From Haematomicrobium sanguinis DSM 21259 (GTDB taxonomy: Bacteria > Actinomycetota > Actinomycetes > Actinomycetales > Micrococcaceae): a stretch of DNA of 64,000 nucleotides. The position numbers and the translations under genes are program-made. Under the pieces are notes generated by a model. That model was not told the DNA's origin. It ran no database searches and worked only from the letters and a program-made list of their open reading frames with translations. The stretch lies in contig NZ_JIAG01000001.1 of assembly GCF_000688395.1 (NCBI RefSeq), positions 248,001 through 312,000 of the forward strand, written 5' to 3'. Numbering within the stretch: position 1 is the stretch's first letter; every line of letters starts with the position of its first letter. Below, piece by piece: positions 2,554 through 16,165 of this stretch.

Positions 2554-3114
2554 ATGGCCATCACCCACCGCGACATCGTCACCACCGGCCTCACCCTGCT
2601 GCGCCAGTACGGCCTCGCCGACCTCTCCATGCGCCGCATCGCCAAGGAGCTCGGCGTCCAGCCCGGCGCGCTCTACTGGCATGTGAAAAACAAGCAGGAA
2701 CTTCTGGTCGCCTTGGCTCGCGAACTCACCGCGCACCCGGTGACGCACGACGGCGAGACCTCACCCGCTCGCCCCACCTCACCGGATGGTTCGGCTACTA
2801 CGAGCGAGCTCGTGGTGTCTGCCGCTCAAACGATGATCGATCAGCTTGCCGAGGTGCCCGACGGCGCCGAAGTGGTGCAGCTTGCTTACGCTCTGGAACC
2901 GGAGTCGGTGACGCCGTTGGCCCGGCTACGCGAGGCACTCACGGATCGGGTGGCAGATGCCGACATCATTACCAACGCCACAGCACACCTGGTCTTGGGC
3001 GAACTGATTGCGATGCGCACCCGCGCCCTGGCAGGGTCTCGCTCGGGCACCGGAATGGCCGCGGATGCCTTTGACGCCGTGAAGGTCGCGCTTCTGATGC
3101 TAACCCGCCCGTGA
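2554..3114 (+). CDS. bioQ: TetR-family repressor of biotin genes (BioQ-like)
   Basis: 186-residue TetR-family regulator. The N-terminal helix-turn-helix is clear (DLSMRRIAKELGVQPGALYW, about residues 26-45), followed by the WHVKNKQELL segment and a divergent ligand or dimer domain. The assignment as BioQ rests on position (divergent from bioB) and on the perfect TGAAC-N3-GTTCA operator between them. The region around residues 65-75 (THDGETSP) is encoded by a copy of the dispersed 22-bp element and sits in a loop after the DNA-binding domain. The 3' end overlaps convergent menD by 15 bp. Confidence 0.8.
   Translation: MAITHRDIVTTGLTLLRQYGLADLSMRRIAKELGVQPGALYWHVKNKQELLVALARELTAHPVTHDGETSPARPTSPDGSATTSELVVSAAQTMIDQLAEVPDGAEVVQLAYALEPESVTPLARLREALTDRVADADIITNATAHLVLGELIAMRTRALAGSRSGTGMAADAFDAVKVALLMLTRP
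2744..2765 (+). repeat. dispersed 22-bp element copy inside the BioQ-like gene
   Basis: ACGACGGCG at 2747-2755 is followed by AGAC and CTCACC. In the regulator frame it reads THDGETSP, the same frame as the copies in bioB, menB and ccsB. It lies in a variable linker, so the protein could tolerate it as an insertion. Confidence 0.6.
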
Positions 3115-4998
3115 CGCGGCCTCTCGAATCCGATCGTGCAGCTCCCGCAGCCCGCCGCGATCCACCGCCACCTCCACGATGGTGACCCCGCGAATCGGTG
3201 CGGCGAGCGCGGTGGCGAGCTCCGCCGTCGTACTCACTGCCGTGTGCGGCACCCCGTAAGCCGCCCCGAGGTGGGCAAAATCGACGTTGTGCGGCGTCGC
3301 GAAAAGCCGCTCGACCGCGTCCGCCATGCCTTCGCGCGCGCCGACCTCGCCGTGTTCGAGCACCCCGAAGATTGCGCCGCCGAGGTCGTTGAGCACTACG
3401 ATTTGCAACGGGACATCGCCCTCAAAGGCGCCGCGGAGCAGGCCGCCGACATCGTGCAAGGCGGTCACGTCACCCACGTAGAGCCGCGTAGGTATTCCGT
3501 CTGCCGCGGCAACCCCGAGCCCCGTCGAGACGGTACCGTCAATCCCCGCGAGGCCGCGGTTCGCAAAAACGTCGAGCGGGCGGTGCGCGGCGCTGGCCAT
3601 AAGGTCAAGGTCCCGCACCACATTTGAGGATCCCACCACCAAATTCGCCCCGCTCGCATTCCACACCATCTCCGCCGCGCTCAAGCTCGGCAGGCTCGGC
3701 TCGTCGGCCAAAATGCGGCGGATCGACTCGGCCACAACGCTTCCCGCGCGTTGCCATGCCGCCAACCAGCCCTCGGGACCAGCCCCGGCAAACTCGGCAA
3801 GCTCGGCCAGAGAATCGGTGACCGGCCCGGGCGCGCGCTGCCCCTCAAACCAGGCCACGGGGGTTCCGGCGTACAGCGCCAGGGGGCGAGTGCCGTCCAT
3901 CAGCGAAGCGACCGGCCGGGACAGTGTCGGGTGCCCGAAGACCACCACGCGCTCAATGCGCTCGGCAAACGAAGGGATCAGCAGCCGGTACGGCTCGATC
4001 GCATTGGGCCCGAACCGCGCGTTGGAGGACGGTTCGGCCAAGAGCGGCAGGCCCTGCGTGCGCGCAAAGTCCTCGGCGACCCCGCCCGCGCCGTCCCCCG
4101 CAATTACCACGGTGCGGCTTTTGTCCACCGCGGCGTATCCGGCGTCGGCAAGATGCGGAACTTTCGCCGCTTCGGCAGCTTCGGCCTTCGCGGCCTGCAC
4201 CTGCTCCCACCGCGCACGCTCTGGCGTTCCCGGGAGCCCCTTCACGAGCATCGGCGAAAACTGCACGAGCTCCAGCATGAGGTTCTGCGCAATCGGAATG
4301 CCGCCGGGAGTGGTGCGCGGAACCGTATTGGGATCCACCTCGCTCGGCTCAACCGGCGGTTGATACGTCCACTCGGCGTCCGGCACGAGCGGCGGCGCAA
4401 ACTGCACATTCACATGCACCGGCCCGGGCGCCGCAACAATCGGCATCGCGTCCAGCATCTCGGGCGGCCGCACCCACATTTCGGGGGGCACGCGCGCGTT
4501 GTCGGTTGGCGCCTTGATCCCGCGCGCCACCCAGGCGGCATCTTGGGAATATACGACGGCGATGCGCGGCTGAGTGCCGACCGGCACGTCATAATTCTGG
4601 CGGACAAAGCGACCAAAAATCCGCTGCTGAAACGTTGTCTGATTGGCACCGGTTCCGTGCATATCCTCGGGCCGATCCGCGGTGAGGATAACCAACGGCA
4701 CACTCGAGTGACTGGCTTCCATAACGGCGGGAAGGAGGTTGCCCACGGCCGTCCCGGAGGTCGTGATCACGGCGGCAAGCGCACCGGCTTTACTCAAGCC
4801 AAGGGCGAGGTAAGCGGCATCTCGCTCATCGATCCGGACGTGAATGCGGGCGTGACCGGCGCGCTCGGCGGCAGCCACCACGTAGGCGAGCGGCGCGCTC
4901 CGAGACCCGGGTGCGATCACAAAATCTCGCACGCCATTGTCGATCAGCCCATTAATGAGCGCGTTCGCGGTTTGCAGGCTCGTGGCGGGGGTCCTCAC
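3100..4998 (-). CDS. menD: 2-succinyl-5-enolpyruvyl-6-hydroxy-3-cyclohexene-1-carboxylate synthase (MenD)
   Basis: ThDP-dependent enzyme of menaquinone synthesis joining isochorismate and 2-oxoglutarate. At 632 residues it is somewhat longer than many homologues. The N-terminal Pyr domain (VIAPGSRSAPLA, then RIHVRIDERDAAYLALGLSK with the catalytic Glu region and TTSGTAVGNLLPAVMEA) and the C-terminal PP domain (NRGLAGIDGTVSTGLG, then YVGDVTALHDVGG and LNDLGGAIFGVLE) are clear. The GTG start has a -10 TAGACT 6 nt upstream, suggesting a leaderless mRNA. That hexamer includes the stop codon of the upstream HipA remnant. menC lies further upstream on the same strand. Confidence 0.95.
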   Translation of the reverse strand: MRTPATSLQTANALINGLIDNGVRDFVIAPGSRSAPLAYVVAAAERAGHARIHVRIDERDAAYLALGLSKAGALAAVITTSGTAVGNLLPAVMEASHSSVPLVILTADRPEDMHGTGANQTTFQQRIFGRFVRQNYDVPVGTQPRIAVVYSQDAAWVARGIKAPTDNARVPPEMWVRPPEMLDAMPIVAAPGPVHVNVQFAPPLVPDAEWTYQPPVEPSEVDPNTVPRTTPGGIPIAQNLMLELVQFSPMLVKGLPGTPERARWEQVQAAKAEAAEAAKVPHLADAGYAAVDKSRTVVIAGDGAGGVAEDFARTQGLPLLAEPSSNARFGPNAIEPYRLLIPSFAERIERVVVFGHPTLSRPVASLMDGTRPLALYAGTPVAWFEGQRAPGPVTDSLAELAEFAGAGPEGWLAAWQRAGSVVAESIRRILADEPSLPSLSAAEMVWNASGANLVVGSSNVVRDLDLMASAAHRPLDVFANRGLAGIDGTVSTGLGVAAADGIPTRLYVGDVTALHDVGGLLRGAFEGDVPLQIVVLNDLGGAIFGVLEHGEVGAREGMADAVERLFATPHNVDFAHLGAAYGVPHTAVSTTAELATALAAPIRGVTIVEVAVDRGGLRELHDRIREAASRAG

Positions 4999-5004
4999 TC
5001 TGCG

Positions 5005-5010
5005 AGTCTA
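5005..5010 (-). promoter_or_regulatory. menD -10 hexamer (TAGACT)
   Basis: Read on the minus strand, TAGACT ends 6 nt before the menD GTG, placing the expected +1 on the start codon. The first three bases are the TAG that ends the truncated hipA frame, so menD seems to use a promoter at the edge of the decayed insertion. No good -35 is visible. Confidence 0.55.
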
Positions 5011-5178
5011 GTTGACTGGCAACGCGCGCGGGAGGCTAATTGGTGCGAGCGCGAGGGGCGGATCGGTGCAACATTGACCAGCGGGCGCCCCGGAGCTCAC
5101 CGCAAAGTCGGCATCTCGATCGTTGTTGCCCTCAAAGGTGCCGATAATCTGCCCATACAGCTCAACGTTGAGGCGCAT
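5008..5178 (-). pseudogene. truncated HipA N-terminus
   Basis: A 56-codon frame starting ATG at 5178, which overlaps the stop of the HipB-like gene as in intact hipBA operons. Its beginning (MRLNVELYGQIIGTFEG) resembles the HipA N-terminal strand-turn-strand (xVYLNGxxVGTLE), and ALAPISLP may correspond to the next HipA motif. It then stops at TAG 5008-5010. The kinase core of roughly 350-400 residues is absent, and menD follows. I read it as a deletion remnant of a HipA toxin gene; a short unrelated peptide is possible. Confidence 0.5.
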
Positions 5179-5401
5179 CCCCGCTCCATTCCGCCTTGAT
5201 CGTCACATTGAGAGCGTCGAGCAGGGTAAAGATGCGTTCGGCGTAAATGGTGTGCTTTCCGGATTCAACATCGCTGATGGCACTTTGCGCAATTCCGGTG
5301 GCCTTCGCGAGTTGACGCTGGTTGAGGCCCGCGGAAATTCGGGCCTGTTGCACGGTGAATCCAAGATCTTCCGGGCTGCGAATGTTTGACCAGTAATCCA
5401 T
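5162..5401 (-). CDS. HipB-like helix-turn-helix protein (orphan antitoxin-type regulator)
   Basis: 79-residue XRE-family DNA-binding protein. The HTH (QARISAGLNQRQLAKATGIA then QSAISDVESGKHTIYAERI, about residues 18-56) is followed by the LLDALNV(T)I strand characteristic of HipB-like antitoxins. The ATG at 5401 is chosen because GGAGG sits 5 nt upstream; the frame extends further but would overlap menC. The partner toxin gene is reduced to a 56-codon stub, so this is an orphan regulator lying between menC and menD. Whether it now regulates men genes is unknown. Confidence 0.8.
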   Translation of the reverse strand: MDYWSNIRSPEDLGFTVQQARISAGLNQRQLAKATGIAQSAISDVESGKHTIYAERIFTLLDALNVTIKAEWSGDAPQR

Positions 5402-5426
5402 TGTGCCTCCGATCTGGTTTTTCAGA

Positions 5427-6449
5427 TCAGGCTTCGGCATTCACGAGGTTCGCGTACGTACGCGCCACGCGATCGAGCCACCACTGCTTCCGTTGGCCCT
5501 CAACGCTCGCTCTCTCGATCAAGTCCTGCCGAACCGCATCGCCGCTATGTACGCGCTTCGCGTCCTCAACCCTGATCATTCCGCCTTGCGGGACGAGCGA
5601 CGGGTCGGCAACGTCCTCGGCAAACAGCGCAACCGTTGCGAGCCCGCACGCATAGGGCAATTCGGGCAAGGCGGCGGCCAGCGCAACCCCGGCCGCAATC
5701 CCGACCGAGGAGTCCAGCGCGGAACTGACCACACAGGGCAACCCGCTTTCCTTGACGATGCTCAACGCTCGAGCCACCCCGCCGAGCGGCATCGCCTTGA
5801 CCACCAGGAGGTCCGCGGCACCCAACCGGGCAACACGCAACGGGTCCTCGGCCTTGCGAACGCTTTCGTCGGCGGCAATCAGCAACGGCACCCCCCGGGC
5901 GTCCAACGTCTCACGCACGCGCGCTAGAGCTTCAACACTGGGAACGGGCTGCTCGGCGTACTCGAGACCAAGATCGGCGAGGGCGCTCAACGCATCCACG
6001 GCCTCAGACTCGGACCAGCCCCCGTTCGCATCCACACGAATGTTCGCGGTGGGCAACAGATCCCGGACTTGGCGCACCCGGGCAAGGTCATCCACAAGCG
6101 CTTGCCCGCGCTCGGCGACCTTGACTTTGACGGTTGGCCGCTCACCCATATCGCCAAAACGCTCCAACACGGACTCCACCCGGCCGGCGGGAACCGCGGG
6201 CATGGTCGCATTCACGGGAACGTGCGTGCGCACGGGAGGCACGTCGCATCCCCAACCCCACTCCAAGGCGCCGCGAAGCCAGGAAGCCGACTCATCGTCG
6301 TCGTATTCCACAAATGGCGCAAATTCTGCCCAGCCCTGCGGGCCCTCGAACAGCACGATTTCGCGCTCGGTGACACCGCGGAACTTCACGTTCATGCCGA
6401 GGCGGATGACGTGGGCGCGGGCGAGGACGTCGGGTAGTGGCGGGAGCAT
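5427..6449 (-). CDS. menC: o-succinylbenzoate synthase (MenC)
   Basis: Enolase-superfamily dehydratase converting SHCHC to o-succinylbenzoate in menaquinone synthesis. Visible catalytic features are VKVKVAE (Lys108/Lys110), metal ligands D140 (VDANGGW), E166 (YAEQPVPS) and D194 (AADESV), and the second acid/base K218 (VVKAMPLGG). Length 340 residues is normal for the actinobacterial short-capping-domain type. A TAGAGT -10 lies 6 nt before the ATG, consistent with a leaderless transcript. The HipB-like gene follows after 25 bp, and menD comes after it. Confidence 0.93.
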   Translation of the reverse strand: MLPPLPDVLARAHVIRLGMNVKFRGVTEREIVLFEGPQGWAEFAPFVEYDDDESASWLRGALEWGWGCDVPPVRTHVPVNATMPAVPAGRVESVLERFGDMGERPTVKVKVAERGQALVDDLARVRQVRDLLPTANIRVDANGGWSESEAVDALSALADLGLEYAEQPVPSVEALARVRETLDARGVPLLIAADESVRKAEDPLRVARLGAADLLVVKAMPLGGVARALSIVKESGLPCVVSSALDSSVGIAAGVALAAALPELPYACGLATVALFAEDVADPSLVPQGGMIRVEDAKRVHSGDAVRQDLIERASVEGQRKQWWLDRVARTYANLVNAEA

Positions 6450-6531
6450 GGTTCGACTCTACTGGTTTTGCGGGCGGCGTCGGCGCGCCCACCAGCGAAT
6501 GCCCAGCGAACGGTGCGAGTCTTTAAGGGCT

Positions 6532-15178: not shown

Positions 15179-16165
15179 GTGAGCAACAATCCGCACAGCA
15201 CCCCGAACCCCGTCCCCGCCACCGTTTCCGACACATTCGACCCGGAGCGCTGGCGCACTGTCGAGGGCTTTGCGGATCTCACCGACATCACCTACCACCG
15301 GCAGGTGGACCGAAAGAAGCACGACGGCGTTAACTCACCTTCCGAGCGCGACTTGCCTACCGTACGGATCGCCTTCAATCGCCCCGAGGTGCGTAACGCG
15401 TTCCGTCCCCACACCGTGGATGAGCTGTACCGGGTGCTTGACCACGCCCGCATGACACCGGATGTCGCCACCGTGCTATTGACCGGCAACGGCCCAAGCC
15501 CCAAGGACGGCGGTTACGCGTTCTGCTCCGGCGGCGATCAGCGCATCCGCGGTCGTGACGGCTACAAATACGCCGACGGGGAAACCAAGGATTCGATCGA
15601 CCCGGCCCGCGCCGGACGGCTGCACATCTTGGAGGTGCAGCGCCTCATCCGCACCATGCCCAAGGTCGTCATTGCGGTCGTGAACGGCTGGGCGGCCGGA
15701 GGCGGTCACAGCCTGCACGTAGTTTGCGATCTCACCATCGCCTCGAAGGAGCACGGCAAGTTCAAGCAGACCGACGCCACCGTCGGTAGCTTCGACGCGG
15801 GCTACGGCTCAGCACTTTTGGCCCGCCAAACCGGGCAAAAGTTTGCGCGGGAAATCTTCTTCTTGGCCCGCGAATACTCCGCCGAGGACATGGTGCGCAT
15901 GGGCGCCGTCAATGAGGCCGTCCCCCATGGCGACCTGGAAAACACCGCACTGGACTACGCGGCCGACATTGCCCGCCAGTCCCCGCAAGCGATTCGGATG
16001 CTCAAGTTTGCCTTCAATCTCCCCGATGACGGCATTGCAGGCCAACAGGTCTTCGCCGGGGAAGCCACCCGCCTGGCATACATGACCGATGAAGCCGTCG
16101 AGGGCAAGGAAGCATTCTTGCAAAAGCGCGATCCGGACTGGTCCCGCTTCCCCTATTACTTCTAA
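15179..16165 (+). CDS. menB: 1,4-dihydroxy-2-naphthoyl-CoA synthase (MenB)
   Basis: Crotonase-fold cyclase of menaquinone synthesis, 328 residues. Highly conserved blocks are TDITYHRQVD, RPEVRNAFRPHTVDELYRVL, FCSGGDQRIRGRDGY, NGWAAGGGHSLHVVCDLT, FKQTDATVGSFDAGYGSA and a C-terminus ending YYF. Compared with the M. tuberculosis protein (from memory), there are about 14 extra residues (RKKHDGVNSPSERDLP) after the ITYHR block, exactly where a dispersed-element copy lies. GTG 15179 is chosen; a TAGACT -10 ends 7 nt before it, so it is probably leaderless. menE and menA follow on the same strand. Confidence 0.95.
   Translation: MSNNPHSTPNPVPATVSDTFDPERWRTVEGFADLTDITYHRQVDRKKHDGVNSPSERDLPTVRIAFNRPEVRNAFRPHTVDELYRVLDHARMTPDVATVLLTGNGPSPKDGGYAFCSGGDQRIRGRDGYKYADGETKDSIDPARAGRLHILEVQRLIRTMPKVVIAVVNGWAAGGGHSLHVVCDLTIASKEHGKFKQTDATVGSFDAGYGSALLARQTGQKFAREIFFLAREYSAEDMVRMGAVNEAVPHGDLENTALDYAADIARQSPQAIRMLKFAFNLPDDGIAGQQVFAGEATRLAYMTDEAVEGKEAFLQKRDPDWSRFPYYF
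15317..15339 (+). repeat. dispersed 22-bp element copy inside menB
   Basis: AAGCACGACGGCG (15317-15329), then TTAA and CTCACC. In frame it encodes KHDGVNSP, which falls within a segment lacking a counterpart in the shorter MenB of M. tuberculosis. This is the best evidence that the element can insert into reading frames. Confidence 0.7.

Follow-up and report, generated by a model that had tools for sequence, protein, structure and literature searches.

An orphan hipB gene with residual hipA sequence in the menC-menD interval of Haematomicrobium sanguinis

The stretch of DNA analyzed here (64,000 nucleotides, referred to as the window) carries a decayed hipBA toxin-antitoxin module between the genes menC and menD. 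As judged from sequence comparison, the antitoxin gene and one probable operator are left of this module, together with a short 5' remnant of the toxin gene. We consider it likely that the whole locus consists of a hipBA relic behind menC, a menD promoter that is older than the relic, a HipB protein acting as an autorepressor, and a dead hipA stub. The features of the locus are as follows.

5427..6449, minus strand: menC (o-succinylbenzoate synthase; NF002782, 394.9 bits, cut-off 288)
5429-5427, minus strand: menC stop codon TGA, running into the operator palindrome
5411..5428, minus strand: 18-bp palindrome GATCTGAAAAACCAGATC, touching the menC stop; probable HipB operator from sequence comparison
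5406..5410, minus strand: GGAGG, Shine-Dalgarno-like sequence of hipB, 4 nt before its start
5162..5401, minus strand: hipB, intact gene for a 79-aa Xre-type HTH antitoxin (open frame and profiles)
5008-5178, minus strand: 56-codon frame (the stub), overlapping the end of hipB by 17 nt
5092..5178, minus strand: hipA remnant, HipA codons 1-29 (pairwise similarity extends to residue 31, base 5086)
5011..5091, minus strand: remainder of the 56-codon frame, without accepted HipA similarity
5005..5010, minus strand: TAGACT, probable -10 box of menD by comparison with relatives, 6 nt before the menD GTG
5010-5008, minus strand: stop codon TAG of the stub frame, identical with the first half of TAGACT
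3100..4998, minus strand: menD, GTG start (TIGR00173, 318.2 bits, cut-off 244.2)

The curated profile cut-offs were passed by both menC and menD, the genes flanking the hipB site. Of the other men genes, only menB was sought; it maps roughly 10 kb from this site, at about 15359-16150 in the window (converted from contig coordinates). A first-pass annotation had described an intact HipB-like gene overlapping a 56-codon HipA N-terminal stub in the menC-menD interval, with the stub's stop TAG forming part of TAGACT. Frames and profiles confirmed the former statement, and the latter is evident from the sequence itself.

The hipB product is a HipB-type HTH antitoxin, as in a HipBA module. It matched HTH_3 (E = 2.1e-12) and TIGR03070 couple_hipB (E = 8.8e-14), yet its 51.2 bits against the latter fell below the curated cut-off of 71.65. 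HipB homologues were sought in three overlapping sets, each including the window's own genome: 59 related genomes (match in 27, E <= 0.001), 395 genomes of the family (19, E <= 1e-9), and 396 genomes of the order (4, E <= 1e-17). No other member of the same genus was present in the related or family sets. The nearest intact hipBA pairs found were those at L003 (genome G041) and L112 (genome G636), with a HipB identity of 64-65%, and the hipB start at 5401 agrees with the L003 homologue. HipB relatives were also present in seven plasmid records, with an identity below 60% in all of them, and in two viral contigs, both distant. Compared with hipB of L003, identity by codon position was 70/78/40% (67 codons), a pattern that reads as past purifying selection. 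The third-position G+C content was 62% for hipB and 77-78% for menC and menD, which may be a weak sign of foreign origin.

For the identification of the stub, a HipA hidden Markov model (HMM) was built from 14 loci with full-length HipA after hipB; L004, L005, and L007, which have a long frame after hipB, were left out. The stub scored 22.2 bits over residues 1-29. In a single BLASTP comparison, it matched the HipA of L003 at 48% over 31 residues (E = 1e-7). No match to Pfam or NCBIfam was obtained up to an E value of 10, for which the shortness of the fragment is the probable reason. Thus, the annotated identity of the 56-residue frame as a HipA N terminus was upheld by the custom HMM, with Pfam and NCBIfam silent, for residues 1-29 or 1-31 only. 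For the last ~25 codons, translated in every frame, no acceptable similarity was seen among the matches listed against HipA proteins, nor did the HipA HMM give one. This segment (5011..5091) is possibly the old menC-menD spacer or hipA sequence decayed past recognition. A weak alignment with the HipA of L039 that ran through the stub stop was rejected because the HMM match ends at residue 29.

The overlap with hipB was informative as well. As in the stub, HipA starts 17 nt inside the end of hipB in L003 (with the start MRL), L112, L039, and L042. The overlap is variable, at 4 nt in L032-L038 and 8 nt in L045, L046, L047, and L049. The three partner HipAs examined contained Couple_hipA (about residues 3-105) followed by HipA_C. 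No HipA kinase stands behind hipB in the window, where 29-31 codons remain. In the window's genome, which is 99.99% complete by its record, no HipA_C domain, and hence no HipA kinase domain, was found; of 14 genomes searched in the same way as a control, four gave a match, C. glutamicum among them. The absence of HipA_C from the genome and the end of similarity at residue 29-31 indicate that the toxin is gone. The proposal of a decayed hipBA module is therefore borne out by the HipA similarity of the stub, the overlap shared with L003 and L112, and the missing kinase. The stub is most likely a dead remnant.

We then considered the age of the loss. Over the first 31 codons, the third-position G+C content of the stub is 74%, close to that of the host genes, and its identity to 13 other HipAs was 35-53%. 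Intact pairs with a HipB identity of 30-60% averaged 45-52%; this comparison left out L035, and the 60-70% bin to which the window-L003 pair belongs held no intact pair. The stub is conserved about as well as it is in intact pairs whose HipB proteins are less alike, which implies that the loss of hipA was recent or that the stub is under some constraint. Relative to the divergence from these relatives, the loss may be recent, or the stub may be under weak constraint.

To place the module relative to its neighbors, we compared 22 distinct fetched loci, window included, in which both genes lie on the same strand of a single stretch; the duplicates L081 and L092 were removed. Spacing was taken as the distance between the menC stop and the base aligned with residue 1 of menD. 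The window's spacing was 428 nt, and 18 of the 21 other loci had 209 nt or less. In L066, L078, and L079, 883-1239 nt separated the two genes. hipB occurred between menC and menD in none of the 21. Conversely, neither menC nor menD was detected at the 47 loci found by hipB hits (L003-L049, most with ~1.5 kb per side; E <= 1e-8) or near L112 and L114 (E <= 1e-5). Among the 61 menC/menD loci (L050-L110), the stub was confined to L051 and L081, which are both copies of the window itself, all other matches having E values of 0.027 or worse. Accordingly, the same stub in relatives without hipB, which the first-pass annotation had named as evidence against its reading, did not occur in these loci, and its view that the module was inserted or left behind agrees with the spacing and with the confinement of hipB to the window. 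The adjacency of menC and menD is not universal, as both were in the stretch in 15 of the 31 loci L050-L080. A MenD query of genome contigs returned one locus, from a Micrococcaceae MAG. No repeats of at least 10 nt were found at the insert ends. The comparison, which included no other genome of the genus, sets neither the order nor the date of insertion and deletion.

For menD, a box was scored when an in-frame ATG or GTG close to the start of the gene was preceded, at a distance of 5-8 nt, by TANNNT. Of the same 61 loci, 45 had the menD N terminus and 43 of these were distinct; the box was present in 25 of the 43, including the window. When all upstream bases were shuffled, the mean was 0.4 loci and the maximum 2 (200 trials), a lenient control because start codons were destroyed as well. 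When start codons were kept and the 50 nt before them shuffled, the mean was 0.84 and the maximum 4 (500 trials). The spacing was 6 nt in 17 loci and 7 nt in 6, and the rest of the range from 0 to 25 nt accounted for 6 cases; this tally leaves out two loci whose starts are located farther upstream. In L085 and L086, TAGACT was present a few bases further away. A simple sigma-70 scan of positions 4500-6500 on both strands called no promoter, so the designation as a menD -10 box rests on the comparison with relatives.

The box just before the start codon is a feature that menD shares with leaderless actinobacterial promoters of the TANNNT type. In Mycobacterium tuberculosis, the -10 motif is mainly TANNNT, with no conserved -35; for 73% of primary start sites it is centered 7-12 bp upstream, and leaderless transcripts are frequent (PMC3898074). 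The same paper describes leaderless mRNAs as nearly absent from the respiration and energy genes of this species (PMC3898074), a point that counts to some degree against menD being leaderless. The conserved spacing makes it probable that menD is expressed from its own TAGACT box as an mRNA translated without a leader, and this leaderless-type promoter is probably older than the insert.

Upstream of hipB, a single predicted 18-bp operator of the L003/L112 type was found. With a matrix derived from L003, which comprised five 18-mers (two of them out of register between the others), the site at 5411 ranked first in the 64 kb (20.5; next 13.3). When the matrix was taken from one L003 site alone, the palindrome scored 16.5 vs 11.0 for the next site. 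Before hipB, L003 has three palindromes in register, and L112 likewise has three in register, spaced by 28 bp, with two further sites that share their outer form in between. L042 has two 18-bp TATC-N10-GATA sites, TATCTGGATTTCAAGATA and TATCTTGAAATCCAGATA, which are probably the HipB operators of another intact pair; several other hipB loci showed no such palindrome by the same test. For comparison, the sequence bound by HipB of Escherichia coli, TATCC-N8-GGATA, has the same length of 18 bp (PMC3376134). Genome-wide, the window palindrome was the only mismatch-free copy for the patterns used. The strict operator pattern had six matches in the window's genome (two of which are the 5411 site read on both strands), and the reversed pattern had one. 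The loose pattern TGATCTGNNNNNCCAGATC, with up to three mismatches, had 372 genome matches vs 83 for its reverse, perhaps reflecting word bias. Elsewhere in the genome, TGGCCTGGATTTCCAGATCG (G000:C10:57027-57046), with two mismatches to the strict pattern, is a candidate second HipB site. No TANNNT box was found in the 150 nt before the hipB start. With this and the single site left, hipB probably no longer has a promoter of its own and relies on the menC transcript, from which HipB would probably be translated. HipB probably binds the predicted palindrome and holds down its own expression.

Taken together, comparison with relatives suggests the following history. A hipBA module, or its 5' part, would have arrived directly behind menC and upstream of an existing menD promoter. 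hipA past codon ~30 is missing, and the kinase with it; what the sequence retains is hipB with its ribosome site and a single operator-like palindrome. Alternatively, a fragment of hipBA may have been captured in one step. HipB made from the menC transcript would then bind the palindrome and limit its own synthesis, while menD would be expressed leaderless from its own TAGACT, the stub being presumably dead.

Other readings of the stub and of its stop codon carry far less weight. The silence of Pfam and NCBIfam would fit a chance frame with an accidental likeness to HipA. However, the best of 2000 shuffled stubs reached only 4.1 bits in the HipA HMM, and the stub lies in the expected place and frame with the overlap of L003 and L112, which leaves accident extremely improbable. 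The frame might instead encode a working small protein, similar to the HipS antitoxin part of HipBST: HipS is encoded right after hipB and resembles the HipA N terminus, the hipB/hipS overlap in E. coli O127 is 16 nt (PMC6581861), and the stub's codon-position identity to L003, 65/68/32% over 31 codons, is a coding-sequence pattern. However, HipS as described has ~100 aa (PMC6581861) and the HipA N-terminal domain of the partner proteins is of similar extent, compared with 29-31 HipA residues here, and the genome has no HipA_C-type kinase domain for such a protein; we judge this reading highly improbable. The first-pass annotation had also proposed that the deletion in hipA created or placed the menD promoter, thereby joining the stub stop to the -10 box. 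The TAG is truly part of TAGACT, and 18 of the 43 menD loci lack a box by our rule, so that a box at menD is not obligatory. However, the 24 of 42 other menD loci that have the box are all without hipB there, and exact TAGACT-N6-RTG occurs in the window and in the hipB-less loci L070, L076, L102, and L110. L102 and L110, which read TAGACTCGAAGCGTG where the window reads TAGACTCGCAGAGTG, are near-identical and hence not independent. Because hipB-less relatives carry the box at the same distance, no hipA deletion is needed for it; the stub frame ends in TAGACT because it happens to run into the box. The proposal was thus not borne out, and a deletion-made promoter is very unlikely.

The role of HipB leaves more room. 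HipB might have been domesticated, either blocking, when bound at the menC stop, the read-through from menC into hipB and menD or acting elsewhere in the genome. An intact hipB without a toxin, its codon-position pattern of past purifying selection, and the operator-like site kept between menC and menD are all in favor. Nevertheless, the operator is followed ~400 nt downstream by a box of menD's own, the six strict matches vs one reversed outline no clear regulon, and the selection on hipB may wholly predate the loss of hipA. Domestication is therefore rather unlikely in our estimate, and still more doubtful is the specific idea that orphan HipB at the remaining operator forms a roadblock that would uncouple menC from menD and tune menaquinone synthesis. 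We thus retain the reading of HipB as a probable autorepressor within a hipBA relic.

The locus is of interest as a toxin-antitoxin module caught after toxin loss, with the antitoxin and an operator-like site kept, at a position between two metabolic genes that are neighbors in about half of the relatives examined (15 of 31). It also illustrates that a stop codon inside a promoter box can suggest a false promoter origin when insert-free relatives have the box too. If HipB still binds, the locus would make it easy to test the idea that orphan antitoxins persist as regulators. Among the matches listed in an open-access literature search joining both subjects, none reported a hip module at a men locus, which does not prove absence.

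Among known systems, HipBA (the serine/threonine kinase HipA with the Xre-type antitoxin HipB) is the closest, sharing the HTH antitoxin gene in first place and the HipA start overlapping its end. As in the window, the E. coli operator is an 18-bp palindrome; four operators are described there (PMC3376134), compared with three in register in L003 and L112 and one in the window. The window differs from HipBA in the lost kinase and the position between menC and menD. With HipBST, it shares a short HipA-N-terminal-like frame right after hipB, but this frame falls short of HipS in size, and the HipA_C profile finds no counterpart of the HipT kinase in the genome. In orphan (solitary) antitoxins, the antitoxin is retained after loss of the toxin gene. 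The orphan hipB with its hipA remnant between menC and menD is real, largely explained, and another case of this known phenomenon, differing in that a piece of the toxin gene can still be read.
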